From Bacilli bacterium (GTDB lineage: Bacteria; Bacillota_I; Bacilli_A; RF39; UBA660), in the NCBI GenBank assembly GCA_030531695.1, contig JAUNMV010000012.1, positions 1 through 32,408 on the forward strand: a DNA stretch of 32,408 bases, given 5' to 3'. Below, in pieces: positions 2,142 to 26,790 of the stretch. The number at the start of each line of letters is the position of its first letter. The first letter of the stretch is position 1. The position numbers and the translations under genes were made by a program. A model generated the notes under the pieces. The model had not been told where the DNA came from and did no database searches. It was given only the letters and a program-made list of their open reading frames with translations.

Positions 2142-2714
2142 ATGAAAAAGATAATTAATAAAATAGTAAACAATTATTTAAAAAAGTTTCCTAATGAGTA
2201 TGAAAGATTATCAAACTTTATAAGTTATTTAGATTGTCATGAGGATAATGAAATAACTGATTGGAATAACTTTGAAGGACACATAGTTGCTAGTGGATTT
2301 GTTTATTCGAAAGAAGATAAGAAATTTCTAGTACTATATCATAATGATATGAAAATGTATGTTTATCCTGGAGGACATATTGATAGTAGTGATACTGATC
2401 CAGAGTCTGCAACAAGAAGAGAATTAGAGGAAGAAACATGTTTAAATAACTTAAATAATTACATAATAAATAATGATAAACTTATCCCATTAGATATAGA
2501 TACTCATATTATAAAGAAGAATGAGAGATTGAATTTACCTCCTCATTATCATTTTGATTTTAGATATCTATATTTAATAGACAAAATACAAGATATTAGT
2601 ATTGATAAAGATGAATCACGTGATTATAAATGGATAGATATAGAAGAGTTATCAACTATAACTAATTGTACAGTAATAGTACCAAAAATAAGAAAAATAA
2701 TAGAAAGATTATAA
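2142..2714 (+). CDS. Nudix hydrolase
   Basis: A 190-residue cytoplasmic Nudix protein. The Nudix box is visible: GGH at about residues 78-80, then REL-EEE-TCL at about residues 93-101, matching the REUxEExGU core with Cys where Gly is usual. The acidic residues of the box bind the metal that cleaves a nucleoside diphosphate linked to another group. About 60 residues precede the domain, longer than in a minimal MutT, and PPHYHFDFRYLYL followed by a late WIDIEEL is typical of Nudix families that act on small nucleotide derivatives. The substrate cannot be named. It has its own promoter; no terminator is visible before the next gene. Confidence 0.85.
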   Translation: MKKIINKIVNNYLKKFPNEYERLSNFISYLDCHEDNEITDWNNFEGHIVASGFVYSKEDKKFLVLYHNDMKMYVYPGGHIDSSDTDPESATRRELEEETCLNNLNNYIINNDKLIPLDIDTHIIKKNERLNLPPHYHFDFRYLYLIDKIQDISIDKDESRDYKWIDIEELSTITNCTVIVPKIRKIIERL

Positions 2715-2722
2715 GAGATAAA

Positions 2723-2756
2723 TTGACAAAAATAAAATTAAAATATAAAGTATAAT
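2723..2756 (+). promoter_or_regulatory. probable promoter of the YcxB-like gene
   Basis: A perfect -35 TTGACA (2723-2728) is followed by TATAAA (2744-2749, spacing 15) and TATAAT (2751-2756, spacing 22). Neither spacing is ideal, so the exact -10 is uncertain. Confidence 0.45.
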
Positions 2757-2781
2757 TGTAGGATTGAAAGAGGTGTTTTAT

Positions 2782-3333
2782 ATGGATTTAGCAATCTATA
2801 GAGTAGCAAACAAAAAATTAGTATTAGATGAAATGAGAGGAATAATAAAGATATATCCAGCTTTATTAGAAAATCCAAAAACTAAAGTAAAAAGAATGTC
2901 ACAAGAATTAAGAATGAAGATAATTATACCTGCTGTATATACAGTACTACAAGGTTTAGAATTATTATTCTTATGGAGAAATCCAATATTCTATATGGCT
3001 TTAGGTGCAGGTATTATGGCAACTATTCTAGAGTATATGAGATATGATGAATATATGAAAAAACTAGAAATAGATAAAACTCAAAAAACAGATGCTGTAT
3101 TAAGTGTATCTGAAAATAGAATTCAATTTATTAATAATGTTACAAATAGAGTTAGAACAATAGAGTGGGAAAAAATAAAACAAATTTTAGTAACAGCTAA
3201 TTGTATTTGCTTCATGCCTGAATATATAGAAACAGGAGACATGAATGATATAATCATCTCTAGAGATTATGAAATAGAAATATTAGAGTTATTAAAGAAA
3301 ATAGGAAAAGACAAACTAATGGTCTTCAATTAG
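2782..3333 (+). CDS. YcxB-like membrane protein
   Basis: About 183 residues from the ATG at 2782. An upstream in-frame TTG at 2764 is rejected because the ribosome site AAAGAGGTG lies inside that extension. After a soluble N-terminus there are two close hydrophobic helices (about residues 45-60 and 64-83 of the shorter form), then a soluble C-terminal half with VSENRIQFINN and IEWEKIKQI. A membrane hairpin followed by a PH-like module with a tryptophan in IxWxxIxxI is the pattern of YcxB-like proteins. Their function is unknown. The next gene begins 4 bases after the stop, so the two are probably translated together. Confidence 0.55.
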   Translation: MDLAIYRVANKKLVLDEMRGIIKIYPALLENPKTKVKRMSQELRMKIIIPAVYTVLQGLELLFLWRNPIFYMALGAGIMATILEYMRYDEYMKKLEIDKTQKTDAVLSVSENRIQFINNVTNRVRTIEWEKIKQILVTANCICFMPEYIETGDMNDIIISRDYEIEILELLKKIGKDKLMVFN

Positions 3334-3337
3334 TATT

Positions 3338-4129
3338 ATGAAGAAACTATATAAACTCCTTAAAGAGTATGATAACGTCCTATTAGATAAAAAATTCTTA
3401 GAGAAAGCTTTTGAATATTATTTAGAAGAAGATCAAGATTTAAAAGATTATGTATGTAATATAAAAGTTACTGATAATGATGAAGATAGTAAGATATATG
3501 GTAATTATAGAAAACCACCTGATAAGTTAGTTACTATCTACATAAATAATATAATTAATAAAGATGTTTTCTCGGATAACGTTAATAGGAAAAATATTTT
3601 TGCGCTAGAGGCATTAAAGCATGAGTTAACTCATGCTAAACAGTTAAAAAGAATAGATGAGGGTAAAAAAGATTTAAATACAGAAGTAAATAAACTATCT
3701 TTATTAAATTACTGTAATGAAAAAGGTATCTTCTATCCATTACCAGAATATGATATGCAATATATAAACTTTTTAACTAATGAGAATTATGAGATATCTC
3801 CAGATGAAAGAAGTGCTGAAATAACATCATGGAAGTATATAGTTAATTTATTAAAGAACCAAAGAAAAACAGATGAGTTATTATACGCTAAAACTAATTT
3901 ATTTTATTCATATGTTAGAGGATATAAAGATAATGGTATTTATGTTAATTGTCCAACATATGAATTCTTAATAGAATTAAGATTAATGCGTGAATTTAAA
4001 TTGTTAAAAAACAAAACTGAGAAGAATAAATATAATTTAGAAACTAGATTATTAAATGGACTACCAATAACTCATCAAGAATATAATAATGAGATATTAA
4101 AGAGATTACGATTAACTAAAAGAAAGTAA
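3338..4129 (+). CDS. putative HExxH zinc metallopeptidase-like protein
   Basis: A 263-residue soluble protein with no signal peptide or membrane segment. It contains HELTH with H95, E96 and H99, the zinc-binding and catalytic motif of zincins. A second acidic cluster, SPDERSAE (E157, E161), lies about 60 residues later, where gluzincin-type enzymes place the third zinc ligand. I do not recognise the family beyond this. Its start is 4 bases after the YcxB-like stop and has almost no ribosome site of its own, which points to translational coupling and perhaps a shared role. Proteolysis is an inference from the motif alone; the C-terminal 70 residues are very basic. Confidence 0.55.
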   Translation: MKKLYKLLKEYDNVLLDKKFLEKAFEYYLEEDQDLKDYVCNIKVTDNDEDSKIYGNYRKPPDKLVTIYINNIINKDVFSDNVNRKNIFALEALKHELTHAKQLKRIDEGKKDLNTEVNKLSLLNYCNEKGIFYPLPEYDMQYINFLTNENYEISPDERSAEITSWKYIVNLLKNQRKTDELLYAKTNLFYSYVRGYKDNGIYVNCPTYEFLIELRLMREFKLLKNKTEKNKYNLETRLLNGLPITHQEYNNEILKRLRLTKRK

Positions 4130-4138
4130 TCTTTTTTT
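4103..4138 (+). terminator. probable rho-independent terminator
   Basis: AGATTAC (4103-4109) pairs with GTAATCT (4126-4132) around a 16-base loop, followed by a T-run to 4138. The stem starts within the last codons of the upstream gene. The long loop makes it weaker than its neighbours. Confidence 0.55.
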
Positions 4139-4139
4139 A

Positions 4140-4167
4140 TTGAAAAATATTTTTAAAATTATATAAT
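4140..4167 (+). promoter_or_regulatory. promoter of the MFS transporter gene
   Basis: TTGAAA (4140-4145), a 16-bp spacer and a consensus TATAAT (4162-4167). The ribosome site GTGAGG follows before the ATG at 4196. Confidence 0.7.
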
Positions 4168-4195
4168 GGTGTTGTAAGTATATAGTGAGGTTTAT

Positions 4196-5392
4196 ATGAA
4201 TAGGGAACAAAAAGCAATTATCGCAATTGCATCTTTAAAAAATGTAATGGGAATATTCTTAGGTCCATTCCTAACAGCTTATTTTATAAAAACAACACAA
4301 GATAGTTTAGCATTATTAGCTTTTTATTACATAATAACTTATTTAGTACTAGCTTTAGGTACTTTGATAGTCGCAAGAATTGTAAATAATAGATTTAGAA
4401 TACAAATGTATAGAATAGGTGTTATAACTACATTTATATATATGCTATCAATAGTATTCCTACAAGAAAAAATAGTTTATTATCTACCACTAATAGCCAT
4501 ATTAAATGGTACTGCATTATCTACTTATTGGTATCCATACAATTTATTTGTAACTAATAAAATAGATAATAAAGATAGAACTAAATTTACAGTAACAGCA
4601 AATACTGTAAGTTCTATAGTAGGAGTAATTACACCTGTTTTATTAGGTACTATTATAACTTCATCTAACTTTAAATTAACTTCTATTATAATTGCAGTAT
4701 TATCAGGAATAATAATATTATTATCATTTGTATTAAAAACAGAAAAGAATTATGATTTACCTAAAGTAACTTATAATGATACATGGGATTATCTAATATC
4801 TTACAAAGCTACAAGAAAAGCTTTATTTACAGAATTTTTAATAGGGTTAACTGCCAGTGATGGAGCTTTAAACATCTTAACAACAGTATTAATATTTACT
4901 TCATTTAAAACAGATTTAAATTTAGGTATTATTACATCTATCGCTACAGTATTAAAGATTATTTATATTAAATTCTATCAACATAAATTAAAAGGTAAAT
5001 ATGATAAGAGAGTAGTATTAATATCTAGTTTAATACCAGCTTTATCTTTATTATTATTACTATTCTTTAAAACAAATACAATGGTAGTTATATATAATAT
5101 TTGTTTTACAGTTTTTGCTGGTTTAATATCACTAGTAAGTGAAATAAGATTAGTAAATATTTCTAATAGTAATCTAGTAGATAAAGATACTCAAATAGAG
5201 TTTTTAGCATTTAAAGAATTAGTATTAAACTTAGGTAGAATAGCTAGTTATGACTTAGTATTAGTATTAACTGTAATTAATATTAATAATTCATTATATA
5301 TATTATTAATTATATTAACTTTATTAACTATATATATGGGATATAATGTAAGTAGATTAAATAAATATGAAGTCGTAAAAAACAAGGATTAA
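4196..5392 (+). CDS. MFS-type membrane transporter
   Basis: A 398-residue integral membrane protein with about 12 hydrophobic helices in two halves separated by a polar stretch near residues 180-205 (KTEKNYDLPKVTYNDTWDY). The length and two-times-six arrangement fit the major facilitator superfamily. Residues after helix 2 (ARIVNNRFRIQMYRIG) resemble the basic loop 2-3 of the family, although the canonical GxxxDRxGRR is not intact. The substrate is unknown; no neighbouring enzyme pathway hints at one. It is a single-gene unit with its own promoter and a strong terminator. Confidence 0.75.
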   Translation: MNREQKAIIAIASLKNVMGIFLGPFLTAYFIKTTQDSLALLAFYYIITYLVLALGTLIVARIVNNRFRIQMYRIGVITTFIYMLSIVFLQEKIVYYLPLIAILNGTALSTYWYPYNLFVTNKIDNKDRTKFTVTANTVSSIVGVITPVLLGTIITSSNFKLTSIIIAVLSGIIILLSFVLKTEKNYDLPKVTYNDTWDYLISYKATRKALFTEFLIGLTASDGALNILTTVLIFTSFKTDLNLGIITSIATVLKIIYIKFYQHKLKGKYDKRVVLISSLIPALSLLLLLFFKTNTMVVIYNICFTVFAGLISLVSEIRLVNISNSNLVDKDTQIEFLAFKELVLNLGRIASYDLVLVLTVININNSLYILLIILTLLTIYMGYNVSRLNKYEVVKNKD

Positions 5393-7663: not shown

Positions 7664-9607
7664 ATGTCAGAAGGTAATATGTATGGTAGTTTTTATTTTC
7701 AAGCTTGTTCACTTGCATATATTATATTGCTTGCCTTTGTTTTTTTCTCAAGAAGAAAATTGAATACAATTGAAAATAAAGTATACTCAATATTAATAAT
7801 TTTAAACTTATTCGGTGTTACCGTTGACATCGTTAGTATTTATTATGCCTTTTTTAACGAGACTAGTCCTATGCTAATAATATTAGCTAAGGTTTATTTG
7901 ATGTATTTAATTGCATACATGATAGTAGTAACTTTATATTTTATGATTATTGTTTTTGCTGGATCAGCATCTACAGAAAAAAAGAATTACTTATATAAGA
8001 AATATAATAAGTCATTCTTTTTAGTGGCAATAATATTTTCAATTATAATTGCTATAATACCACTATATTTTAATACAGCAGATGGTAGATTATATTCATA
8101 TGGTCCTGGTGCTTTAACAACGTATGCAGTATGTGCTATGTTCATTGTATTATGGATCATAGTCGCAATCATTAAACGTAAAGAAATACCAAGGAATAAA
8201 TTTTTCCCAATGATATCAGTTACTGCAACTGGTACAATTGCTGCCGTAGTTCAATTCTTTGTACCTGAATTACTAGTTGTATCAGCTGCCGAAGTTTTAT
8301 GTATCTTCATCTTATATCTAACAGTATTCTTAGTAGAGAACCCAGATATAAGAATGATTGAAGAAATTAAAGAAGCAAGAAATGAAGCTGAAAGAGCAAA
8401 TACTTCAAAAACAGAATTTTTATCTAACATGTCACATGAAATAAGAACTCCGCTTAATGCTATCTTAGGTTTCTCACAAGGATTACTAGAAGAGAATCTT
8501 AAAGGGGAAGCTAAAGAAGATGCAGAAGATATAGTAAATGCATCAGATAGTTTATTATCAATAGTAAATGAAATACTGGATATATCTAAGATAGAATCAA
8601 ATAAACTAGAAATAGAAGAAGGAGAATACTCTTTCGATAAAATCTATAGATACTTAGTAACGATGACACAAGGTAGATTAGGTAATAAACAATTAGATTT
8701 TATTCATAATTGTGCAGATAATATACCTGCAGTATTATATGGAGATTCTGTAAGAATAAAACAAATAGCAGTAAACTTATTAACTAACTCAGTAAAATAT
8801 ACTCAAACAGGATTTGTTAAATTAAATATCGATTGTGAAATAATTGATTCAGAAAAATGTAAAATAATAATTTCAGTAGAAGATTCTGGTATAGGTATTA
8901 AAAAAGAAGACTTAGAAAAATTATTCTCTAAATACGAAAGATTTGATTCTGAAAAGAATATTAATGTTGAAGGTACAGGATTAGGTCTTGCACTAACTAA
9001 GACATTAGTAGAATTAATGAATGGTACTATTAATGTTGATAGTAAGTATGGAGAAGGATCAAAATTCGTAGTTACATTTGAACAAAAAATAGTAAAACTA
9101 GAAAAACAAGCAGAAAATGAAGCTGTTACTACAAATACAAATTTAGGATTTATTGGTAATAAGCAAAAGATTCTTATAGTAGATGATAATACAGTTAATT
9201 TAAAAGTGGCAAAGAGAATACTAGAACCATACAATCTAGAAATAGAATTCTCTGGTAGTGGAAAAGATTTTATCAAAAAGTATACATCAGGAGAACATTA
9301 TGATTTAGTAATGTTAGATGATATGATGCCTGAATTAAGTGGTGTAGAAACATTAAAATATTTAAAAGAACACACAGATTACAATATTCCAACTATAGCT
9401 CTAACTGCTAATGCTTTAGCAGGAATGAGAGAACAATATTTCAAAGATGGATTCGATGATTATTTATCTAAACCAATAGATAAATTATTGTTAGAAGAAA
9501 TATTAAATAAACATTTAAAAAGTAATGGTACACCTAATGAAGTTATTCAACAAGAACAACCAGAACCTATTGTGGAAGGAAACTTAGAAGAAATAGAAGT
9601 ATTATAA
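7664..9607 (+). CDS. hybrid histidine kinase HK1 (7TM sensor, HisKA, HATPase, receiver; no HPt)
   Basis: A 647-residue membrane kinase. About seven hydrophobic helices fill residues 10-225, with no large extracellular domain, as in HisKA_7TM-type sensors. A short coiled linker (EEIKEARNEAERANTSKT) leads to the H-box SHEIRTPLNAILGF, with the phosphorylated H258. The ATPase domain shows the N-box (VNLLTNSVKYT) and the G-boxes DSGIGI and GTGLGLAL. The receiver shows ILIVDDN, the phospho-acceptor D552 in MLDDMMPE, ALTANAL and the lysine in LSKPIDK. The protein ends in a Glu/Pro-rich tail without HPt, unlike its three paralogues here. Known chemistry: His to Asp phosphotransfer. A separate HPt and response regulator must complete the relay; using the HPt of a neighbour is my inference. 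HK2 starts 15 bases later, so the two are an operon. Confidence 0.92.
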   Translation: MSEGNMYGSFYFQACSLAYIILLAFVFFSRRKLNTIENKVYSILIILNLFGVTVDIVSIYYAFFNETSPMLIILAKVYLMYLIAYMIVVTLYFMIIVFAGSASTEKKNYLYKKYNKSFFLVAIIFSIIIAIIPLYFNTADGRLYSYGPGALTTYAVCAMFIVLWIIVAIIKRKEIPRNKFFPMISVTATGTIAAVVQFFVPELLVVSAAEVLCIFILYLTVFLVENPDIRMIEEIKEARNEAERANTSKTEFLSNMSHEIRTPLNAILGFSQGLLEENLKGEAKEDAEDIVNASDSLLSIVNEILDISKIESNKLEIEEGEYSFDKIYRYLVTMTQGRLGNKQLDFIHNCADNIPAVLYGDSVRIKQIAVNLLTNSVKYTQTGFVKLNIDCEIIDSEKCKIIISVEDSGIGIKKEDLEKLFSKYERFDSEKNINVEGTGLGLALTKTLVELMNGTINVDSKYGEGSKFVVTFEQKIVKLEKQAENEAVTTNTNLGFIGNKQKILIVDDNTVNLKVAKRILEPYNLEIEFSGSGKDFIKKYTSGEHYDLVMLDDMMPELSGVETLKYLKEHTDYNIPTIALTANALAGMREQYFKDGFDDYLSKPIDKLLLEEILNKHLKSNGTPNEVIQQEQPEPIVEGNLEEIEVL

Positions 9608-9622
9608 TAAAAAGGTGGTGAG

Positions 9623-11536
9623 ATGATGTCAGTATATTATTTTTCTATAATATCATTAGTATATATGATATTAATAACAATAGCATTTTTGACTAAAAAG
9701 AAAAATTTAACTTCAGAAAACATCATCTTTTCTCACTTAATCTTAATAGTTTTAGCAGAAGTGTTATTAGATTTTGGAAATATTTATCTATCAAGAAATT
9801 ATCCAGAAAGTATTATATATAAATACTGTTTTAGATTATACTTAATATTTATAATTTACTATGTTTTAGTATTCACTGAATATACTATATCTTTAGTACA
9901 AACTGAAGTTGAGGGTGAAGAAAAGATTATTAAACAAAATAGACTATGTAATAGCGTAATGGTCTTTATGATTTTCTGGGCCATTTTAATTGTTTATATA
10001 GATCAATTTACTCAAAGTGCTTCACATTTTAATTCTAGAGGTTTCGTAACAACAATAACAGTAACAATGTCTATGTTATTACTAGTAGTATGGATGGCTA
10101 TTTTGATTATTAATAAAAAGAAATTAAATAATCAAAAATTAGTTCCAATTACAATAGTTATATTATCTGGTACAATAGGTGCTTGTGCACAATATCTTTA
10201 TCCAAATTATAGATTAATTGTTCCAGCTTTCGTCTTCTCATTAGTTACTTTATATTTCACAATATTCCCATTAGAAAATCCTGATGTAAAAATGGTTAAT
10301 GAAATGGAAAAAGCTAAGAAAGAAGCAGATCAAGCAAATAAATCAAAGACAGAGTACTTATCTAATGTATCACATGAAATTAGAACACCATTAAATGCAA
10401 TCTTAGGATTTTCTCAAAGTATGTTAGAAGAAGATATAGATGATAATGTAAAAGAAGAAGTTGAGGATATAGTAGATGCTTCTGAAATATTACTAGAAAT
10501 AGTAAATGAAATATTGGATATTTCAAAAATAGAGTCTAATAAACTAGAAATAGTAAATGTGGATTATTCTACAGAAAAAGTATATAAGTCATTAGTATCA
10601 ATGACTGAAGGAAGATTAGGTAGTAGACAACTACAATTTATACATAATTATGCAAATGATATTCCTCCTGTGTTATTAGGAGATTATGTACGTATAAAAC
10701 AAATAGTAGTAAATTTATTAACTAACGCTATAAAATATACAGATCAAGGATTTATAAAATTAAGCTTTAGTAGTGAACGTACAGAAGAAGAAAATACAAT
10801 CAAATTAAGAATATCTGTTACAGATTCAGGTATTGGTATAAAAGAAGAATACTTCGACAAAATATTCTCTAAGTTCAATGGACTAGAACTACAAAAAGAT
10901 GTAGCCATTGAAGGTACAGGATTAGGCCTTTCGTTAACTAAAAAATTAGTAGATATGATGGGTGGAAAAATAGTAGTTCAAAGTAAATATGGTGAGGGCT
11001 CTACTTTCACAGTGATTTTAAATCAAAAGATTTCAGAAAAAACATTAGAAGAATTAGAGTTAGAAACTCCTAAGGCTACAAAAAATAGTTTTGTAGGTAA
11101 TGGACAAAGAATATTAATAGTTGATGATAATGCTGTAAATTTAAAAGTAGCTTTAAGATTAATGAAACCATATAATTTAGATATAGAAACACTAACAAGT
11201 AGTAAAGATTGTATATCTAAAATAGTAGCTGGAAATAAATATGATTTAGTAATGCTAGATGATATGATGCCTGAAATGAGTGGAGTAGAAGTACTAAAAT
11301 ATTTAAAAGAGAATATAGGTTATAATACTCCTACTATTGCACTTACAGCTAATGCTATATCAGGTATGAAGGAAAAATATTTAAATGATGGATTTACTGA
11401 TTACTTATCTAAACCAATTGATAAGAATATCTTAGAGGATTTATTAATTAAATATTTAGGTAATACATCATCAACATCAAAAGAAGCATCTAATGATATA
11501 AAAGAGACTGTTAATAAAGTAGTAGAAGAAGTATAA
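9623..11536 (+). CDS. hybrid histidine kinase HK2, cut before its HPt by TAA
   Basis: A 637-residue paralogue of HK1 with the same order: about seven helices in residues 5-220, H-box SHEIRTPLNAILGF with H251, N-box VNLLTNAIKYT, G-boxes DSGIGI and GTGLGLSL, receiver ILIVDDN with D546 in MLDDMMPE and K in LSKPIDK. The ribosome site AAGGTGGTGAG precedes two ATG codons, 9623 and 9626; either could start. The frame stops at TAA 11534-11536 in a Glu/Lys-rich linker, but the same frame continues downstream into an intact HPt domain (see 11537-11980). As encoded, the kinase is complete through the receiver and resembles HK1 in lacking HPt. It is the second gene of the HK1-HK2 operon. The sensor differs from HK1, so the ligands may differ. 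Confidence 0.9.
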   Translation: MMSVYYFSIISLVYMILITIAFLTKKKNLTSENIIFSHLILIVLAEVLLDFGNIYLSRNYPESIIYKYCFRLYLIFIIYYVLVFTEYTISLVQTEVEGEEKIIKQNRLCNSVMVFMIFWAILIVYIDQFTQSASHFNSRGFVTTITVTMSMLLLVVWMAILIINKKKLNNQKLVPITIVILSGTIGACAQYLYPNYRLIVPAFVFSLVTLYFTIFPLENPDVKMVNEMEKAKKEADQANKSKTEYLSNVSHEIRTPLNAILGFSQSMLEEDIDDNVKEEVEDIVDASEILLEIVNEILDISKIESNKLEIVNVDYSTEKVYKSLVSMTEGRLGSRQLQFIHNYANDIPPVLLGDYVRIKQIVVNLLTNAIKYTDQGFIKLSFSSERTEEENTIKLRISVTDSGIGIKEEYFDKIFSKFNGLELQKDVAIEGTGLGLSLTKKLVDMMGGKIVVQSKYGEGSTFTVILNQKISEKTLEELELETPKATKNSFVGNGQRILIVDDNAVNLKVALRLMKPYNLDIETLTSSKDCISKIVAGNKYDLVMLDDMMPEMSGVEVLKYLKENIGYNTPTIALTANAISGMKEKYLNDGFTDYLSKPIDKNILEDLLIKYLGNTSSTSKEASNDIKETVNKVVEEV

Positions 11537-11980
11537 GAACAAGTTGATGAAGTAAAAGAACAAGTCGAAAAAGAAAACGTAGAAGAAAAGATTACTCAAG
11601 ATACTACAAATACTATAGATAATCATAGTAAAGATTATTTACTAAACAATAATGTTGATTTAGATAAAGCTTTAGAATCTTTAGGCGACATGGAGATGTA
11701 CGATGAAACTGTACAAGACTTCTTAGTAGAAGCAGATGGTAAACTAAGTGACATTGAGAAATTTAAAAATGCTCAAGATATGCCTAATTATGCTATATTA
11801 GTCCATTCACTTAAGAGTGATTCAAAATACTTAGGTATGATGGATTTAGCAGATATAGCATACAAACATGAAATGGCAAGTAAAGAAAATAATGTTGATT
11901 TTGTTAATAGTAATTATGATGAATTAATGAAATTAGCTAAAGAAAAAGTAGAAATGCTAAAGAAATATATCGGTAATTAA
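11537..11980 (+). pseudogene. detached HPt domain of HK2, in frame after the TAA
   Basis: Codons 639-785 counted from the HK2 start stay open and encode a linker (EQVDEVKEQVEKEN), then an HPt domain: NNNVDLDKALESLGDMEMYDET and VHSLKSDSKYLG, in which the His accepts phosphate. It is very close to the fused HPt of HK3. An ATG exists at 11690, but it lies inside the first helix and has no good ribosome site, so independent translation would give a damaged domain. The sequence shows no other decay. The TAA probably arose from AAA: the linker is duplicated, and the second copy has GTAAAAGAACAAGT where the first has GTATAAGAACAAGT. A recent nonsense mutation, a sequence error or readthrough are all possible. 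Confidence 0.8.
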
Positions 11981-12008
11981 GAAGAGTAATAAAACTCTTC
12001 TTTTTTTT
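11979..12008 (+). terminator. rho-independent terminator of HK1-HK2
   Basis: AAGAAGAGT (11979-11987) and ACTCTTCTT (11994-12002) form a perfect 9-bp stem with a 6-base loop and a T-run to 12008. It sits after the detached HPt stop, not after the kinase stop, so the transcript still includes the HPt. Confidence 0.9.
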
Positions 12009-12023
12009 GTCTATAGACAAAAA
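12004..12023 (+). promoter_or_regulatory. 20-bp perfect palindrome, possible operator
   Basis: TTTTTGTCTATAGACAAAAA is its own reverse complement. Its left part is the terminator T-tract; the core TTGTCTATAGACAA is independent of it. It lies 17 bp upstream of the -35 of the UbiB-like gene. A DNA-binding dimer site is plausible but unproven. Confidence 0.35.
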
Positions 12024-12039
12024 TATCAAAACTTAAAAA

Positions 12040-12068
12040 TTGTAAATAGTAACCTATTATGATAATAT
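12040..12068 (+). promoter_or_regulatory. promoter of the UbiB-like gene
   Basis: TTGTAA (12040-12045), a 17-bp spacer, then TAATAT (12063-12068) with a TGA extension. TATAAT at 12069-12074 is an alternative -10. Confidence 0.65.
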
Positions 12069-12086
12069 TATAATAGGTGATAATAG

Positions 12087-13640
12087 ATGGAGAGTAGTAA
12101 CATACAAAGATTTTGTGAAATAATGAAAATCTTAAAAAATAGTGGCTTAACTAATGGTTTCACTCCTAAAAAAGTGTATGATACACTTGAATCTTTAGGG
12201 CCATCATTCATAAAGCTAGGACAAATATTATCCGCAAGAGTAGATTTACTACCTGCAGAATATTGTATAGAACTAAGTAAACTTAGAACAGATGTAGCTC
12301 CTATGCCATATGAAGAAGTAGAAGAAATATTAAGAAAAAATTATGAAAATATAGATGAAGTATTTGTATATGTAGAAAGAACTCCTTTGGGTTCAGCATC
12401 TATTGCTCAAGTACATAAAGCTAAATTAAAAAAGAATAATAAAGAAGTAGCTATTAAAATAAGAAGACCTAATATAGAACAAATTATGGCTAATGATTTA
12501 AATCTATTTAGAAAAGCTCTACATATGCTTCAACTAAATAAATTAATTAAAGTAATAGATATAGATTTAGCTCTAGATCAAATATATGAAACAACTATGG
12601 AAGAAACTAATTTTAAATATGAAGCAGATCATTTAAAAGAGTTTAAAGAAAGAAATAGAGATAATGAATATATAGATTGTCCTACAGTATATACAAAACT
12701 ATGTACAGAAGATGTAATAGTAATGGAATATATTGATGGAATTAAAGTGTATGAAAAAGAAAAACTAGAAAAAGATAATTATAATTTAGAAACTATCTCT
12801 AATATAATATGTGAAAATTATATAAAGCAAACATTAGAAGATGGTTTCTTCCACGCAGATCCTCATCCAGATAATATTATGATTAAAGATGATAAAGTAA
12901 TATTTATAGATTTAGGAATGGTAGGAAGATTAACTGATAAAAGTAAAGATTCAATAAAAAAATGTATTAAATCAATGCTTGCCAAAGACTATAAAACTAT
13001 AACAGATGTTATACTAAGTTTATCTAAACAATATGGTAAAAATGAATTAGATTATCAAAAATTAGAGAGTGATATAACTTTATTAATACAAGAATATCTA
13101 ACATTAGAATTAGAAAATATTAATATAGCTAAATTTGCTAATGAAATGTTTAATTTATTAAGAGAACATAAATTAATGTTAGATAAAGATGTTACTATGA
13201 TGATTAGAGGAGATGGAGTAATCGAAGGAGTATTAAAAAATGTTAATCCTAAGATTAGTTTCTTAAATGTCTTATCATTAAGTAAATATGGTCAAAATGA
13301 AGTATTCACAATAGATAATATAAAAGAAACATCTACTAGAGTAATAAGAAGTATGGATAATTTAATAGATTTACCTACAGAAGTAAATACACTATTAAAA
13401 TCAGTTAATAGTGGACAAACTAAATTTAAAGTAGAATTAAGTGAATCAGCTAATCAAGTAGATAAATTAGAAAACTTAGTACATGAAGTAGTAATAGGTT
13501 TTATAGATGGATGTTTAGTTATTGCTACCGCAATCATTGATGTAAAAGAATTAAAATTTATTGGTGCAATATTAGTATTTATATTAACTATTTGGTTAAT
13601 TATTAAGATGATAAAAGATTTAATTCATAGAGGTTATTAA
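12087..13640 (+). CDS. ABC1/AarF/UbiB-family atypical kinase
   Basis: A 517-residue member of the UbiB protein-kinase-like family. Diagnostic motifs are clear: KLGQILSAR (the KxGQ helix, about residues 43-51), GSASIAQVHKA (Ala/Ser-rich nucleotide loop, 102-112), VAIKIRRP with the ATP lysine, HADPHPDN from H256 (catalytic loop), and IDLGM (metal-binding DFG equivalent, about 274-278). Two hydrophobic helices near the C-terminus (about 463-480 and 485-505) anchor it to the membrane, as in UbiB proteins. Family members act as ATPases or kinases that support quinone and other isoprenoid lipid metabolism; no ubi or men genes are nearby, so its role here is open. It has its own promoter and terminator but sits between HK2 and HK3. 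A link to their signalling is inference from position only. Confidence 0.9.
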   Translation: MESSNIQRFCEIMKILKNSGLTNGFTPKKVYDTLESLGPSFIKLGQILSARVDLLPAEYCIELSKLRTDVAPMPYEEVEEILRKNYENIDEVFVYVERTPLGSASIAQVHKAKLKKNNKEVAIKIRRPNIEQIMANDLNLFRKALHMLQLNKLIKVIDIDLALDQIYETTMEETNFKYEADHLKEFKERNRDNEYIDCPTVYTKLCTEDVIVMEYIDGIKVYEKEKLEKDNYNLETISNIICENYIKQTLEDGFFHADPHPDNIMIKDDKVIFIDLGMVGRLTDKSKDSIKKCIKSMLAKDYKTITDVILSLSKQYGKNELDYQKLESDITLLIQEYLTLELENINIAKFANEMFNLLREHKLMLDKDVTMMIRGDGVIEGVLKNVNPKISFLNVLSLSKYGQNEVFTIDNIKETSTRVIRSMDNLIDLPTEVNTLLKSVNSGQTKFKVELSESANQVDKLENLVHEVVIGFIDGCLVIATAIIDVKELKFIGAILVFILTIWLIIKMIKDLIHRGY

Positions 13641-13666
13641 GCTATACAAAATGTATAGCTTTTTTA
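13640..13666 (+). terminator. rho-independent terminator
   Basis: AGCTATACA (13640-13648) and TGTATAGCT (13652-13660) pair perfectly, with a 3-base loop and a following T-run. It starts on the last base of the stop codon. Confidence 0.9.
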
Positions 13667-13742
13667 TTTAAAAAAAGATTTAATAGTGATAAAATTATAT
13701 TATGATAGATAATAGGCAAAAAAGATGAAAAGAGGTGAGAGT

Positions 13743-16061
13743 ATGGCAGATAGTCGTTATTATTTTCAAATAATATCACTAGTATATTTGTTATTAATAT
13801 CAATAGCTTTTTATGCTAAGAAGACTAAAAAAAATACTGGAAGTACCATATTCTCACAATTAATGTTTGACTTATTATTATGTATTATTTTTGATATTTT
13901 ATGTGTATATACAGATAATATGGAAAATACAATTATTAATTATTATTTAAGTTTAGCATTTTTATTAAGTATAGTTAGATATATACTAGTCTTTACTGAA
14001 TATATAACATTAATAGTAAGTGATATACCAGATGAAGAAATAAAAGCTAAAACTTATGAAAAGATACATATGATATGTAACATACTATACATAATATGGT
14101 CTGTTATAACTGTTTATATGTACAACTATTATTCATCATTTGACAGAGAAGTTGGTAACATAGTAGTTTACATATATTGTGGATTCTCATGGTCTGCATG
14201 TATAGGTTACTGGGTAGTAATAATGTCAAAATTCTTAATAAGACAAATTGGAGAAGAAACAAATCCAATGAAGATAGTATGGATATTATTAAAAACATTT
14301 GTAAAGAGATTAGCTCCTATAGCAGCAGCAATTATTCCAGGTACAATAGGATTAGTTATACAATTCTTTATACCTAATTTACACCTATGTGTACCTACAT
14401 TTACATTCTCAATAATAATTATGTACTTTACAATTTTCCCTACAGAAAACCCAGATGTTCAATTAGCCGAAGAAATAGAAAAAGCAAAACTTGAAGCAGA
14501 TCAAGCCAATAAGTCAAAGACAGAGTACTTATCTAATGTATCACATGAAATTAGAACTCCATTAAATGCCATCTTAGGTTTTTCTAATACTTTACTACTA
14601 CAAGAAGATATAGAAGATAGTACTAGAGAAGAAGTAGAATATATTATTGAATCATCTGAATCATTACTTGAAATAGTAAATGAAATACTAGATATATCTA
14701 AGATAGAATCAAATAAACTAGAAATAGTAAATGTTGATTATTCTATAGAAAAATTATATAGAACACTAGTTAATATGACACAAGAAAAAATAGGTAGTAG
14801 TCAACTACAATTTATCCATAATTTTAGTAATGATATACCTCCTGTATTATTAGGAGATTATGTAAGATTAAAACAAATATTATTAAATATAATTAATAAT
14901 GCAATAAAGTATACAGAAGTAGGTTTTGTAAAATTAAAATTTGCTTGTGAAAACATAAGTGAAGATGAATGTAGATTGATAATTAGTGTAACAGATTCTG
15001 GTATAGGTATAGATGAAGAATCTATAGAAAAAATATTCTCAAAATTTCAAGGAATGGAAGTCCAAAAAGATATTGAAATACAAGGTACTGGTTTAGGATT
15101 ATCTCTTACTAAAAGATTAGTTAATATGATGGATGGTAAGATAGTAGTTCAAAGTACTAAAGGTGAGGGTAGTACATTTATAGTTTATGTAACACAAAAG
15201 ATATCTGATAAAGCAATTAATGAATTAGAAGATGAAACTATATCTAATAATAGTATATTTGTGGGCAATGGACAAAGAATATTAATTGTCGATGATAATC
15301 CTATGAATATTAAAGTAGCTTTAAGATTAATGCAAGATTATAATTTAAAAATAGAAACTTTAAATAATGGAAAAGATTGTATTACAAAGATAAATGCCGG
15401 TAGAGTATATGATTTAGTAATGTTAGATGATATGATGCCTGAAATGAGTGGAGTAGATGTTCTAGCAATACTTAAACAAAATCCTAATTATAAGATGAAA
15501 ACAATAGCACTAACAGCTAATGCCATGTCTGGTATGAGAGATAAGTATATAGGATTAGGATTTGATGATTACTTATCTAAACCAATTGATAAGAGAGCAT
15601 TAAATGATTTATTAATTAAATATTTAGGTAATAATACAAAAGCTTCTCAAACTAAAGTAGAAATAAAACAAGAAGTACCAGTAAATAATACTTCTAATGA
15701 AAAATTAAATAAGGATTATTTATCTAATAATAATGTCGATTTAAATAAAGCTTTAGAGTTCTTAGGTGATATGGAAATGTATGATGAAACAGTTAAAGAT
15801 TTCCTAACTGAAGTAGATAGTAAATTAGAAAACATTTCTAAATATAAAGAGTCACAAGATATGCCTAATTATGCTGTATTAGTTCACTCTTTAAAAAGTG
15901 ACGCCAAGTATTTAGGCCTAATGGATTTAGCAGATATAGCATATAAACATGAGATGGCAAGTAAAGGCAATGATATTAATTTTGTTAATGAAAATTATGA
16001 TGAATTAATTAACTTAGCTAAAGAAAAAGTAGATATAATGAAAAAGTATATAGGAGAATAG
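13743..16061 (+). CDS. hybrid histidine kinase HK3 with fused receiver and HPt
   Basis: About 772 residues from the ATG at 13743; the in-frame ATG at 13725 is rejected because the ribosome site AAGAGGTGAG lies between the two. About seven helices occupy residues 6-235, and a longer loop follows helix 5 (RQIGEETNP). Kinase: H268 in SHEIRTPLNAILGF, N-box LNIINNAIKYT, G-boxes DSGIGI and GTGLGLSL. Receiver: ILIVDDN, D562 in MLDDMMPE, LSKPIDK. A linker of about 55 residues leads to a C-terminal HPt with H715 in VHSLKSDAKYLG. It therefore carries every step His-Asp-His in one chain, the intact form of HK2. Like its paralogues it lacks an output domain, so an unlinked response regulator should receive the phosphate. 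It is transcribed alone; TATTAT at 13698-13703 is a possible -10. Confidence 0.93.
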   Translation: MADSRYYFQIISLVYLLLISIAFYAKKTKKNTGSTIFSQLMFDLLLCIIFDILCVYTDNMENTIINYYLSLAFLLSIVRYILVFTEYITLIVSDIPDEEIKAKTYEKIHMICNILYIIWSVITVYMYNYYSSFDREVGNIVVYIYCGFSWSACIGYWVVIMSKFLIRQIGEETNPMKIVWILLKTFVKRLAPIAAAIIPGTIGLVIQFFIPNLHLCVPTFTFSIIIMYFTIFPTENPDVQLAEEIEKAKLEADQANKSKTEYLSNVSHEIRTPLNAILGFSNTLLLQEDIEDSTREEVEYIIESSESLLEIVNEILDISKIESNKLEIVNVDYSIEKLYRTLVNMTQEKIGSSQLQFIHNFSNDIPPVLLGDYVRLKQILLNIINNAIKYTEVGFVKLKFACENISEDECRLIISVTDSGIGIDEESIEKIFSKFQGMEVQKDIEIQGTGLGLSLTKRLVNMMDGKIVVQSTKGEGSTFIVYVTQKISDKAINELEDETISNNSIFVGNGQRILIVDDNPMNIKVALRLMQDYNLKIETLNNGKDCITKINAGRVYDLVMLDDMMPEMSGVDVLAILKQNPNYKMKTIALTANAMSGMRDKYIGLGFDDYLSKPIDKRALNDLLIKYLGNNTKASQTKVEIKQEVPVNNTSNEKLNKDYLSNNNVDLNKALEFLGDMEMYDETVKDFLTEVDSKLENISKYKESQDMPNYAVLVHSLKSDAKYLGLMDLADIAYKHEMASKGNDINFVNENYDELINLAKEKVDIMKKYIGE

Positions 16062-22059: not shown

Positions 22060-22552
22060 AGAAAAAATTCCCAATTATAAAATCTATTTATTAAGTATTC
22101 TAGTAATTATAATTGATCAAATATCTAAACTAATAGTAGTAAAAAATATGAATATAGGAGAAGAAATAGTAATAATAAAAAAATTCTTTTCTATTCTATA
22201 TGTTACTAATACAGGAGCAGCTTTTTCTATGTTAGAAAATTCTACTACTTTATTAATTATTATTAGTTTATTTTGTTTAGCACTAATAGTATCTTTACTA
22301 AAAAAAGAAAAAGATATTACTCCTATAAAGATAATATCATTTGGTATTTTAATAGGTGGAATGATAAGTAATTTAATAGATAGAGTTTTCTATAAAAATG
22401 TAATTGACTTTTTATCATTCACAATCTTTAATTATAAATTTCCAGTATTTAATATAGCTGATATAGGTATAACTATAGGAGTTGCATTGGTATTATTTTT
22501 ACAATATAATAATGAAAAAAAGGAGAAAAAGTATGAAAAACAGGATAGATAA
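22046..22552 (+). CDS. lspA: lipoprotein signal peptidase II
   Basis: A 168-residue inner membrane aspartic protease that removes signal peptides from diacylated prolipoproteins. Four hydrophobic helices are visible. Conserved features are IDQISKLIVV in helix 1, NTGAAFSML, the first catalytic Asp in SNLIDRVFY followed by VIDFLSF, and the second in FNIADIGITIG. The C-terminal tail is very basic. The ATG lies inside the end of dnaE with an AAAAGGAG ribosome site, and the next gene starts 20 bases before its stop, so translation of this operon is coupled. Confidence 0.96.
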   Translation: MNKIKEKIPNYKIYLLSILVIIIDQISKLIVVKNMNIGEEIVIIKKFFSILYVTNTGAAFSMLENSTTLLIIISLFCLALIVSLLKKEKDITPIKIISFGILIGGMISNLIDRVFYKNVIDFLSFTIFNYKFPVFNIADIGITIGVALVLFLQYNNEKKEKKYEKQDR

Positions 22553-23741
22553 TGTTTTAAATTATTACAAAGAAAATGAAAATTGTGATCCAAACGTATA
22601 TGAATTTATAAATATCTGTGATGAATTTGCTGAATATATAAATTCAGCCGCACCTAATTATGGAATATATATAGTTAATGGTGTTTCAGGAAAAGATAAA
22701 TATCCAAATGAATATGAGACACTTCAAAGCTTTATTCAACTAAGTAAACAAATAGAAGAAAAAATAAAAAATAGTGATTTAGAAAATAAAGAATTGCTAT
22801 TTACAATATGTGATAATTGTTACTCCAATGCAGTTCATTACAATCGAGTACCAAATTTAGATTTACAAGCATCTGTTAGTGGAGTATCACTATATATAGC
22901 TCAACAAAAGCGAGATTTGAAAAAGGGAATAATATCAGAATTTACATATAGCAATACAGAGGAATTTAACAGAATTAAAGAAAAATATAATGAAGCAAAA
23001 GATAGTGGATATTTTGCAGATACTATTAATGAAGTCAAGAATAACCATTTAGAAATAGCAGAACTTTTTGAAAATATTTGTAACACATATAATCCTAAGT
23101 ATGAATTAAATATAGATAATGAAATTAATAATAGAGGTACAAATGTTCCAGAAAGAGTAGATAATATTTTAAAATATTATGAAGAAAATAAAGATTGTGA
23201 TCCAAATTTATATGAATATATTGAATTATGCAGTGATTATGCAGATTTTATAAACATAGCAGCACCAAAATATGGAATATATTCTGTTAATGGAAGCAGT
23301 ATTGAAGAAGGTAGAAAAAAATATCCTCTAGCAGCACAGACATATGATAAATTTAAAATTTTAAGTAATAAAGTATTTGATAAGCTAATAAATAACGATT
23401 TAGATATAACTGAACTTTCACCATTATATCAATTAACTCTAGGTGTATATAGAAGTGCATTAACTTATGGTAAGTATGGAGACCAAACTCTTCGTGCAAA
23501 AGCAGCTTCAGTTTCTCTATATATAGCTCAAGGAAAAAGAAATGTAAGAAATGGTGTAACTGATGAATTTACATATAGCAATCTTGCAGAAATGAATAAT
23601 TTGAATAGTGAATGTGAAAAAATAGATATGTCAGATTCTAATGCTAATAACTATGGTGCTTTTAAAAGAGTATTAGAAGATATAAATAAAGATTATGGTG
23701 TTACTTATAGTTCTGAGAATATAGAAAGAAAGACGTTGTAA
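22533..23741 (+). CDS. unknown protein with two tandem copies of a ~200-residue domain
   Basis: A 402-residue protein from the ATG at 22533 with ribosome site AAAGGAG; a longer frame reaching back into lspA has no start signal. I do not recognise the family. Residues about 2-200 and 205-402 are two copies of one domain, aligned by RIDNVLNYYKEN / RVDNILKYYEEN, CDPNVYEFINICDEFAEYIN / CDPNLYEYIELCSDYADFIN, AAPNYGIYIVNG / AAPKYGIYSVNG, a middle VSLYIAQQKRD / VSLYIAQGKRN, and EFTYSN in both. No signal peptide, membrane segment or known catalytic motif is visible; the predicted fold is mostly helical. It lies between lspA and rluD, which are commonly direct neighbours. CGA and CGT Arg codons and a higher share of G differ a little from flanking genes, hinting at insertion. 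Confidence 0.75.
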   Translation: MKNRIDNVLNYYKENENCDPNVYEFINICDEFAEYINSAAPNYGIYIVNGVSGKDKYPNEYETLQSFIQLSKQIEEKIKNSDLENKELLFTICDNCYSNAVHYNRVPNLDLQASVSGVSLYIAQQKRDLKKGIISEFTYSNTEEFNRIKEKYNEAKDSGYFADTINEVKNNHLEIAELFENICNTYNPKYELNIDNEINNRGTNVPERVDNILKYYEENKDCDPNLYEYIELCSDYADFINIAAPKYGIYSVNGSSIEEGRKKYPLAAQTYDKFKILSNKVFDKLINNDLDITELSPLYQLTLGVYRSALTYGKYGDQTLRAKAASVSLYIAQGKRNVRNGVTDEFTYSNLAEMNNLNSECEKIDMSDSNANNYGAFKRVLEDINKDYGVTYSSENIERKTL

Positions 23742-24726: not shown

Positions 24727-24755
24727 TTGAAAAATATAGAGAAATATGATATAAT
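24727..24755 (+). promoter_or_regulatory. promoter of the AMP-ligase gene
   Basis: TTGAAA (24727-24732), a 17-bp spacer and TATAAT (24750-24755) with a TGA extension: close to ideal. The region 24659-24726 is AT-rich and without visible genes. Confidence 0.8.
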
Positions 24756-24780
24756 ATGTGCAACTTTGAGGGGTGAAGTT

Positions 24781-26790
24781 ATGAGAAAAGATGTTTTCAA
24801 AGAAATTGCATCTTTAGCAGCCATGAACTCAGTTGATGGCATTGATGAAGAAAAAATCCAAAAGATGATTGATAGTACAGAAGATACTTTAGGTGTAGAA
24901 CTATCTGGTTATGCAACTATTGATAAACCATATAGACAATTCTATACTAAACAAATGTTAGAAAGTGAGTATCCAAAAGATAAGATTAGTACTGCGATAC
25001 TAAAAAGAGCTTTAACAAATAGCGAAAAAGTAGCATATAGATGTGAAAGAGAATTTACATATGGAGAATTATACGACGAAGTTGTTAATTATGCATATGT
25101 TTTAAAAAATAAATATAAAGTACAAAAGGGCGATAAGATAATCATGGATATATTATCTACACCTGATGCAATTAGTGCATTTCTAGCAGCAAATTTAATT
25201 GGTGCAGAAATAAGACCAATTGATCCAATATATAGTCCACAACAAATTGATAAAATTTTAGTTGACTATGATCCAAAATTAATTATTTGTAATGCATTAC
25301 ATTATGAAAATATGAAAAAAGCAATTGGTGAAAGAAATATACCGGTTAGTTATATAAAATTAAGAGGTAATATACCATTCCTTTCTAAAACTAAGAAAGC
25401 TCTTCTTAATTCATTAGAATCTGCAAATGAAATTAAAATGAAATTTGAGAAAGCAACTAATTTTAATAGTTTTGAAAAAGATATGAAAAATATAGCTGAC
25501 AAAAATATAAAGATAGAAGATGTAATGTCAGAATATAAACCAAATGAAATAGCAGCAATTTTCTCAACTAGTGGAACTACAGGAGTAGCTAAAGGTGTTG
25601 AAGTTACTAATGAAAACTTCTTAAGTAATGTTCATAAAGAATATGTATCAGGATTTGATATAAAAGATGGGGATTCATTATTTAACCCAATGCCAACATG
25701 TAGTTCATTCTTCTGGTATACAATTGCCTTTGCATCATTCTTAGGTGTTACTACTTCATTAAGTCCTGTCTTTAATGCAAAAGCTAGTACAAAACAAATT
25801 GCCGAAGATGAAAGTACATGGGTATTATTAGGACCAATTATAATAAATCAATTATGTGATTTCATAGATAATTATGAAAACATAGTTTCAGATGATAAAT
25901 TTATTTCAAAAATTAAGAAAACTCTATTCAAAGAAAGAGATAAAAAAATAGTAGAGTCTATTAAAGGAAAGAGCCATTACATAAGTGGTGGAGATTTACT
26001 ATCTATTGATCTTGAAAGAAGAGCAAAAGAAAAAGATTTAGTTATTCATAATAACTTAGGAACTTCAGAAAATACAGGACCATCTACAAATCCTAATGGA
26101 GCAATAAGAGGTGGAATTGATTATTATGAAGGATCAGTTGGTGTACCATTACCTGGTAATGATGTGGGAATATTCTTATTTGATGAAGAAAATGATCTTC
26201 CTGCATTAGATGCACCAAATTATGTACAAGGATTAAAATATTATGAAGTAGGAGAAATATGTTTCGATGGTAAAAATCCAAACGTATTTCAAGGATATTA
26301 TAAAAATGAAAAAGAAACAAATAGAACAATTTTAAAACATGCAGATGGAACAATTTGGTACCATTCAGGAGATTTAGGTTATATTGATCCAGCTGGTCAC
26401 ATGTTCTGTTGTGGAAGAAAAAATGGTTTAATTGTTAGAGATGGTCATAAAGTATGGGCTGCTAGAATTGAAAACGTAACTAAAGAAATAGAAGAAGTAA
26501 GTGATTGTGCAATAATAGGAGTTCATGATGAAAAAGATAAAGAAGCTCCTGCAATGTTTATTGTATTCAAAGAAGATGTACACCAAGAGGAAAAAGAAGA
26601 AACAATAAATAAGGTATTTTCTCAAATAGAGAAAAAATTAGATAATAAACATGTCCCAGTATATTGGAAAGAATTAGATGAAATTCCTAGAAATTTAATG
26701 GCAAAAACAAGAATTTCAGAATTGAAAAAAATATATGATGAATCAATTCAAAATACAAATGAAGGACCACAAAAAATTATAAAAAAATAA
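24781..26790 (+). CDS. AMP-forming acyl-CoA synthetase/ligase family protein
   Basis: About 669 residues from the ATG at 24781, preceded by GAGGGGTGAAG. A TTG at 24727 in frame falls in the -35 element and cannot be the start. Adenylation-domain motifs are present: STSGTTGVAKG (phosphate loop, residues 262-272), NNLGTSENTG (A5), WYHSGDLGYID with D531 (ATP ribose contact), RKNGLIVRDGHKVWAARIE (hinge and A8), and a C-terminal lysine K642 in NLMAKTRISEL. The enzyme class activates a carboxylic acid as an acyl-AMP and passes it to CoA or a carrier. No carrier protein, thioesterase or other lipid gene is next to it, so the acid is unknown. It is transcribed alone, just ahead of HK4; any functional link is inference. 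Confidence 0.85.
   Translation: MRKDVFKEIASLAAMNSVDGIDEEKIQKMIDSTEDTLGVELSGYATIDKPYRQFYTKQMLESEYPKDKISTAILKRALTNSEKVAYRCEREFTYGELYDEVVNYAYVLKNKYKVQKGDKIIMDILSTPDAISAFLAANLIGAEIRPIDPIYSPQQIDKILVDYDPKLIICNALHYENMKKAIGERNIPVSYIKLRGNIPFLSKTKKALLNSLESANEIKMKFEKATNFNSFEKDMKNIADKNIKIEDVMSEYKPNEIAAIFSTSGTTGVAKGVEVTNENFLSNVHKEYVSGFDIKDGDSLFNPMPTCSSFFWYTIAFASFLGVTTSLSPVFNAKASTKQIAEDESTWVLLGPIIINQLCDFIDNYENIVSDDKFISKIKKTLFKERDKKIVESIKGKSHYISGGDLLSIDLERRAKEKDLVIHNNLGTSENTGPSTNPNGAIRGGIDYYEGSVGVPLPGNDVGIFLFDEENDLPALDAPNYVQGLKYYEVGEICFDGKNPNVFQGYYKNEKETNRTILKHADGTIWYHSGDLGYIDPAGHMFCCGRKNGLIVRDGHKVWAARIENVTKEIEEVSDCAIIGVHDEKDKEAPAMFIVFKEDVHQEEKEETINKVFSQIEKKLDNKHVPVYWKELDEIPRNLMAKTRISELKKIYDESIQNTNEGPQKIIKK

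Follow-up and report, generated by a model that had tools for sequence, protein, structure and literature searches.

The HK4 Kinase and Its Upstream Ligase

The stretch of DNA analysed here, called the window hereafter, is 32,408 nucleotides long (GenBank assembly GCA_030531695.1, contig JAUNMV010000012.1, positions 1 to 32,408) and comes from a Bacilli bacterium of the RF39 lineage; it corresponds to contig C79 of a metagenome-assembled genome (MAG) of 1.46 Mb in 84 contigs, 81% complete. It encodes four hybrid histidine kinases, HK1 to HK4, in which a sensor of seven transmembrane helices (7TM) is followed by HisKA, HATPase and receiver (REC) domains and, in some of them, by a histidine phosphotransfer (HPt) domain. 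The initial annotation of this DNA dealt with these kinases and overlooked the enzyme gene directly upstream of HK4, which is the more telling feature. The relevant elements are the following:

24727-26790 (ATG alternative 24775), + strand: AMP-forming acyl ligase (PF00501 and PF13193; Pfam 4.6e-41), directly upstream of HK4
26874 (GTG) or 26883 (ATG) to 29579, + strand: HK4, 7TM sensor, HisKA, HATPase, receiver, long Pro/Ala linker, HPt
26883-27474, + strand: HK4 sensor portion, ending about 39 codons upstream of the phospho-His and predicted to be exchanged along with the ligase (AlphaFold2 model; breakpoints of 40 pairs of relatives)
27564-28244, + strand: HK4 HisKA and HATPase (Pfam and our own domain models)
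28308-28673, + strand: HK4 receiver (domain models; acceptor Asp, Thr and Lys present)
29235-29564, + strand: HK4 HPt (domain models)

The ligase retains the A10 lysine and the A3 core, and the Pro/Ala-rich linker before the HPt of HK4 is about 187 residues long. The kinase closest to that of HK4 belongs to a genus-mate (L124, genome G001) and is 74% identical, but its sensor is only 32% and its ligase 25% identical; the closest cassette, that of locus L141 with 60% for the sensor and 61% for the ligase, is attached to a kinase of 67% identity. Because the nearest kinase thus carries a foreign sensor and ligase, and the nearest cassette sits on that 67% kinase, the ligase and the HK4 sensor (to about 27474) are, judging from these comparisons, one cassette allele.

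An Acyl Enzyme Precedes the Kinase in Most Kinase-Receiver Loci

The HPt family is present in 232 of 386 genomes sampled from the taxonomic family to which the window belongs, and 36 of the 38 positives found class-wide belong to that same family, the window's genome included. The named relatives are uncultured Bacilli, Erysipelotrichaceae and Mollicutes MAGs, with sample names that often refer to rumen, colon or other animal gut. We gathered from these relatives 123 distinct, non-identical kinase-receiver loci, numbered with the prefix L. An enzyme gene lies directly upstream of the kinase, on the same strand, in 98 of the 123, namely an AMP-forming acyl ligase (75 loci) or a PlsC-like acyltransferase (23 loci); 10 loci have both, in either gene order. 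The gap between enzyme and kinase is mostly 0-220 bp. As the whole genome of the window contains only five AMP-binding matches, chance adjacency is negligible.

The PF00501 domain, the A3 core and the A10 lysine place these proteins among the adenylate-forming ligases, with a P-loop motif that is variable but present in the alignment; since the catalytic A10 lysine is kept in 75/75, they should adenylate an acid. Relatives with solved structures are CoA ligases of the fatty-acyl, malonyl and coumarate types, and a simple hydropathy count gave no transmembrane segment in 72 of the 75. A peptide precursor was also considered as part of the cassette and rejected, given the short enzyme-kinase gap, with most values within 0-100 bp, and the upstream homology that stops at the enzyme start.

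In four loci, the usual place of the enzyme is taken by a protein of about 325 aa (MPGPKTHDIFYK...; L155:2839-3813, L200:1757-2740, L201:3018-3995, L249:1725-2702), which could represent a third class of cassette enzyme. The L249 version bears an HHVLDAYTHP motif; the L155 protein, the sole member tested, had no Pfam or NCBIfam match.

Enzyme and Sensor Are Replaced Together

Comparisons between species were made on MAGs, with one genome per species and pairs chosen by HPt similarity; the identity thresholds of 45% and 80% used below are our own choice. Between related species, enzyme and sensor are replaced jointly (about 25-41% identity), while kinase and flanks remain at about 80-100%. This is the case for L170/L222 (kinase 100%, sensor 33%, ligase 26%), L178/L183 (99%, 25% and 34%) and L133/L137 (97%, 37% and 26%), where the two upstream genes are 96-97% and the downstream genes 80-98% identical; in L163/L169 (kinase 97%, sensor 41%), one locus has a ligase and the other an acyltransferase. 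The reverse situation, the same cassette on distant kinases, occurs as well, with kinase, sensor and enzyme identities of 57, 63 and 66% in L229/L296 (the enzyme being a ligase) and of 61, 58 and 72% in L163/L251.

In a test on disjoint pairs, in which each locus is used once, sensors at least 45% alike came with enzymes of the same class at least 45% alike in 22 of 28 pairs, versus 0 of 29 pairs in which the kinases were at least 80% alike and the sensors below 45% (Fisher 1e-10). At least one of the six exceptions among the 28 (L106/L114) is a two-enzyme cassette with reversed gene order. A partial Mantel test gave a sensor-ligase correlation, given the kinase, of 0.115 (p=0.002), and p=0.11 for kinase-ligase given the sensor.

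The borders of the exchanged piece are constant. DNA homology resumes at a median of 39 residues (range 34-54) before the phospho-His in 40/40 swapped pairs, and, in pairs with a comparable upstream flank, upstream homology in most cases stops no more than about 80 bp from where the enzyme gene begins. Median identities in swapped pairs are 79% for the upstream flank, 83% for the downstream flank and 31% for the sensors. The association of a hypervariable sensor with a conserved kinase at one locus, by which pherotype systems are recognised, is therefore found here in 29 disjoint pairs with a constant breakpoint. MAG chimerism is an unlikely cause of these swaps, because the frame is intact across the constant breakpoint and MAGs from different studies share related cassettes.

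The Sensor Is Predicted to Share the Shape of GPCRs

AlphaFold2, run with the alignments of relatives, gave models of the HK4 and HK1 sensors with a mean predicted confidence (pLDDT) of 92.6 and 91.3, respectively. Both comprise seven transmembrane helices and a signalling helix, with a beta hairpin inserted between helices 4 and 5. Against solved structures, the HK4 model reached a best Z of 16.3 (5.1 Å, 212 residues), with most values at 15-16 (3.2-3.8 Å, about 198 residues), and the HK1 model a Z of up to 19.1 (3.4 Å, 214 residues); almost all of the structure matches listed are proteins of the G protein-coupled receptor (GPCR) fold, from several GPCR classes. The predicted models are thus seven-helix bundles that superpose on GPCRs. 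As Foldseek alone was weak (E 3.7e-3) and sequence identity is about 10%, we take the modelled likeness as one of common shape and claim no descent. A known Pfam 7TM sensor family was rejected, with no consistent match among 55 sensors.

The Other Kinases and Their Possible Phosphorelay Partners

The three remaining kinases of the window, and the frame severed from one of them, are located as follows:

7664-9607, + strand: HK1, 7TM sensor, HisKA, HATPase, receiver, without HPt (open reading frame (ORF), Pfam, model)
9623-11536, + strand: HK2, 7TM sensor, HisKA, HATPase, receiver, with an in-frame TAA at its end (ORF, Pfam)
11537-11980 (ATG ORF from 11690 only), + strand: HPt-bearing open frame severed from HK2 (Pfam)
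13725-16061, + strand: HK3, 7TM sensor, HisKA, HATPase, receiver, HPt (ORF, Pfam)

Pfam matched HisKA, HATPase_c and Response_reg in HK1, HK2, HK3 and HK4, and Hpt in HK3, HK4 and the open frame past the HK2 stop; the acceptor His, the N- and G-box residues and the receiver Asp/Thr/Lys are kept in all four, as expected of HisKA hybrid kinases. The initial annotation had described them as paralogous hybrids with four HPt states (absent, detached by a stop, fused, and fused through a long linker), with sensors differing far more than kinases and with no output regulator in the window. ORFs, Pfam and the HK4 and HK1 models agree with this description; identities among the four are 24-36% for the sensors versus 45-72% for the kinases, and none of the window's genes was found to encode a response regulator with an output domain. 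The interval it assigned to the cluster (7664-16061) also spans an unrelated ABC1/UbiB-type kinase gene (12087-13640), which separates the tandem HK1-HK2 from HK3.

The HPt of HK2 is severed by a single in-frame TAA (11534-11536), past which the same frame is open over 11537-11980. The first ordinary start there is ATG 11690, and because it would cost the HPt domain roughly its first 17 residues, we consider a recent nonsense mutation or an error in the assembly just as probable as a working detached HPt. The TAA sits inside an imperfect repeat, GAAGTATAAGAACAAGTTGAT / GAAGTAAAAGAACAAGTCGAA, and may therefore be explained by one A-to-T change of an AAA codon.

The window's genome has 55 HATPase_c matches at 1e-5, compared with 4-14 in each of the other 24 listed genomes of its family, except a genus-mate with 23. 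Our own domain models counted 42 intact kinases of this family, contig-end fragments and broken copies being left out: 31 without a receiver, 8 with a receiver and 3 with receiver and HPt. Head-to-tail kinase arrays make up the entire contigs C55 and C2 and large parts of C9, C3 and C13, so the true number may be above 42. No enzyme of the cassette type was found upstream of HK1-HK3 or of the array kinases. The possibility that array sensors are copies of known cassettes (eavesdropping) was rejected, their best match being about 35% versus a background of 32% (95th percentile 40%); a few of them match cassette sensors at 39-44%. In three array kinases (L059:13749-15227, L064:4173-5603, L058:2301-3743), the phospho-His is replaced by Arg or Gln (SRE, SQE) with most ATP-binding residues intact, and these are possibly pseudokinase partners or decaying copies. 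Two adjoining kinases of G001 contig C4 (L119:5405-7564 and 7674-9236), with identical kinase domains, sensors 90% alike and a receiver in only one, are a very recent duplication with loss or gain of the receiver.

The genome contains 19 receiver domains, distributed among hybrid kinases (12, one cut by a contig end), stand-alone receivers (two, on contig C13, with low-complexity flanks), an HPt-REC protein (one) and regulators of the OmpR type (three) and LytTR type (one); there are five HPt domains. A DNA-binding or enzymatic output regulator for the kinase family was sought among the 19 and not found; each of the three OmpR-type regulators adjoins its own kinase gene. The initial annotation had envisaged one distant regulator. 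The HPt-REC is indeed distant (contig C45; in the window's genus, it lies in an obg/yebC neighbourhood, apart from kinases), but it has no DNA-binding or other output domain, and relatives carry it directly behind the kinase. In 58 of the 123 loci, the immediate 3' partner is an HPt-REC gene (47) or a stand-alone HPt gene (11), and the remaining loci include ones with HPt fused to the kinase. Dedicated partners beside the orthologues, which the annotation would have held against a shared output, therefore do occur, although they are not DNA-binding. HPt-REC orthologues retain the HPt His plus the receiver D, D, S/T and K. In L156 (6342-6878) and L201 (6347-6937), small receiver proteins (178 and 196 aa) directly 3' of a kinase-REC-HPt gene are an alternative to HPt-REC as downstream partner.

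In the kinase tree, the HK4 clade has a single orthologue per genome (support 100/100), the HK1-HK3 clade groups with kinases of other genera that have HPt or HPt-REC next door (90/78), and the array kinases of genomes G000, G001 and G005 make up a third clade, restricted to the genus (99/95); receiver presence changed at least 11 times on this tree. We take positions +7, +8, +11 and +12 from the phospho-His, by analogy with EnvZ-type kinases, to be specificity positions. The 27 receiver-less kinases whose H-box could be read all have N+7, A+8, G+11 and L+12; position +12 is L in the array hybrids and F in HK1-HK4. The stand-alone receivers carry NKLNL[RK]VASK like the array hybrids, and the receivers of HK1-HK4 differ there. 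Since the receiver-less kinases match the array hybrids, whose receivers resemble both stand-alone ones, it is plausible from these residues that many array sensors converge on few receivers. The F at +12 and the different receiver helix of HK1-HK4 lead us to predict two insulated groups, HK1-HK4 and the array, with limited cross-talk. The earlier idea that several sensors feed a small number of HPt domains hence gains from the count of 42 kinases to five HPt, two stand-alone receivers and one HPt-REC, and from the uniform receiver-less kinases, but the interface residues set the window's own four apart from the array.

Several other genes were noted. A repeated family with an N-terminal membrane segment like IIIVLILFISIGFAYLSTTLNI (L068:1765-4140, L071:100-1932 and 2667-4550, L118:35-1288, L117:1217-3208) is apparently exported and often close to kinases or HPt-REC. 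In the window, 636-2081 encodes a Ser/Thr/Asn-rich repeat protein, probably secreted, that has a membrane segment at its C-terminus, and 22482-23741 a protein of two related halves, both with no Pfam match; a TspO/MBR-like gene (29576-30034, - strand) is convergent with HK4, a position kept in many relatives.

Comparison with Known Signalling Systems

The RF39/Tenericutes genome paper names only OmpR/EnvZ (PMC7301438), and no paper on ligase-linked 7TM kinases was found in the open-licence literature. By analogy, the co-swapping pattern is the signature of pherotype systems such as agr and ComQXP, here without a peptide gene, for which reason we do not class the cassette as either of them. The upstream enzyme gene, whose product is a putative signal maker, co-varies with the sensor (22 of 28 versus 0 of 29 disjoint pairs). 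In ComQXPA of Bacillus, as in the cassette, an enzyme gene shortly precedes a polytopic sensor kinase on the same strand, the sensor half is variable and the cytoplasmic half conserved, and there are pherotype groups; however, ComQ prenylates the peptide ComX, whereas the cassette has an acyl ligase or acyltransferase and no peptide gene that fits, and its kinase is a REC/HPt hybrid without the DNA-binding ComA (PMC4008528). In agr of Staphylococcus, the signal-maturation gene and the sensor also co-vary as specificity groups, but the signal is a peptide, AgrC is non-hybrid and AgrA binds DNA (PMC8919982, PMC10482373).

The diffusible signal factor (DSF) system RpfF/RpfB/RpfC/RpfG resembles the cassette in having a multi-helix sensor-HK-REC-HPt kinase near a fatty acyl-CoA ligase, and it has paired synthase/sensor variants (RpfF-1/RpfC-1, RpfF-2/RpfC-2); it differs in that the crotonase RpfF makes the signal, RpfC has five transmembrane helices and the output is the HD-GYP protein RpfG (PMC4504480). 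Among the genes inspected upstream of the kinases, a scope narrower than the whole genome, no RpfF-like crotonase was recognised, and no HD-GYP response regulator was present among the 19 receiver domains of the 81%-complete assembly. The RpfC-like PA1396 is a hybrid kinase that lacks an HPt and relies on one in a separate protein, which HK1 would need to do as well, but it has a DNA-binding regulator, PA1397 (PMC4504480). In the LytS-type BtsS, a seven-helix membrane receptor is attached directly to a histidine kinase, as in HK1-HK4; there, however, a LytS-type kinase works with a LytTR regulator, whereas HK1-HK4 are HisKA hybrids (PMC10653868).

A Proposed Swappable Specificity Cassette and Its Alternatives

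Architecture, linkage, co-swapping, constant breakpoints, conserved catalytic residues and predicted fold are all directly supported by the results above. From them we infer, with confidence that is evenly balanced, that the ligase and HK4 together form one allele of a swappable specificity cassette, in which a self-made acyl-type signal would be read by a GPCR-fold receptor kinase and passed on to a constant phosphorelay. The ligase (elsewhere the acyltransferase, or both) would make or activate an acyl-type small molecule, presumably shared between cells, and the 7TM sensor of the following gene would recognise this product or its released form. Ligand binding would set the kinase, with phosphate passing from HisKA to its own REC, then to an HPt (fused, encoded by the next gene or elsewhere) and on to the REC of HPt-REC; the latter, having no DNA-binding part, would act on a protein partner. 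Species would alter their signal by exchanging enzyme and sensor as a unit and keep their response through kinase, REC and HPt-REC. We lean on the idea of a private signal because agr and ComQXP show such matched exchange of enzyme and sensor with an unchanged response half. HK1-HK3 would be older paralogues that have no enzyme, and the array confined to this genus, with its 31 receiver-less kinases, would consist of solo receptors feeding the few stand-alone receivers.

Several points weigh against a self-made signal. Acyl-CoA ligases are mostly catabolic or salvage enzymes, and our chief reservation is that an external acid, detected by the sensor, may be what the enzyme consumes or activates; taken by itself, co-swapping fits both situations. 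The DSF ligase RpfB was found to salvage free fatty acids and not to make the signal (PMC4504480). In about 20% of the loci, the position directly upstream holds no recognised enzyme. The partial Mantel correlations are low, since saturation at 20-35% identity affects most pairs, and single MAGs per species give no view of strain-level polymorphism.

The alternative that survives best is substrate sensing. The ligase would act on a particular acid from diet or host, by uptake or activation, and the sensor would detect this same acid, the two being swapped together to fit a shared substrate. It predicts the same co-swapping, different animal hosts would favour different substrates, and the ligases are similar to CoA ligases of the long-chain fatty acid, malonyl and coumarate families, for which external acids are the main substrates. 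We nevertheless consider it rather improbable, as the response half is near-identical across the different enzymes, a pattern better suited to a changed signal with a fixed response than to changed food, and as the downstream partner has no DNA-binding part with which to switch a catabolic operon.

A feedback on the membrane is less probable still: the enzymes would build or remodel a membrane lipid or an acylated glycan that the 7TM sensor reads, and variation would allow escape from phages, bacteriocins or host factors. The PlsC-like acyltransferases next to the kinase in 23/123 loci, and the 10 loci with both enzymes in either order, recall phospholipid acylation, but the 72 of 75 ligases without transmembrane segments and the many cassettes made of a ligase alone do not agree with it. 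Lastly, mere hitchhiking, in which sensors would be replaced by horizontal transfer and the adjoining ligase carried along by linkage, HK1-HK4 being an ordinary paralogous cluster, would draw co-inheritance from adjacency alone, the genes lying mostly 0-220 bp apart, but we deem it very unlikely, because the exchanged piece has one border shortly before the start of the enzyme gene and the other at a single point within the kinase gene, the flanks are not carried along, related sensors occur with the same two enzyme classes in opposite order (L106/L114), and the linked genes nearly always encode lipid-type enzymes.

If the swappable signalling cassette is the right explanation, a family of uncultured, often gut-derived bacteria uses species-private acyl-type signals, in what would be a non-peptide pherotype system. 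A broader proposal, which we put forward only tentatively, is a new class of cell-cell signalling in which adenylate-forming ligases, with or without acyltransferases, would make lipid-type signals for GPCR-fold kinases and cassette swaps would set specificity; the olfactory-like tandem repertoire of the window's genus, with more than 40 solo receptors, would detect further signals by way of a small number of shared receivers and a single HPt-REC hub. The enzyme beside each receptor would give a direct handle on its ligand, something missing for nearly all orphan sensor kinases, and about 100 natural enzyme-receptor pairs would become available for studying ligand choice by GPCR-like 7TM receptors. 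Even with a purely catabolic enzyme, the cassette indicates the enzyme product or substrate that each sensor reads.

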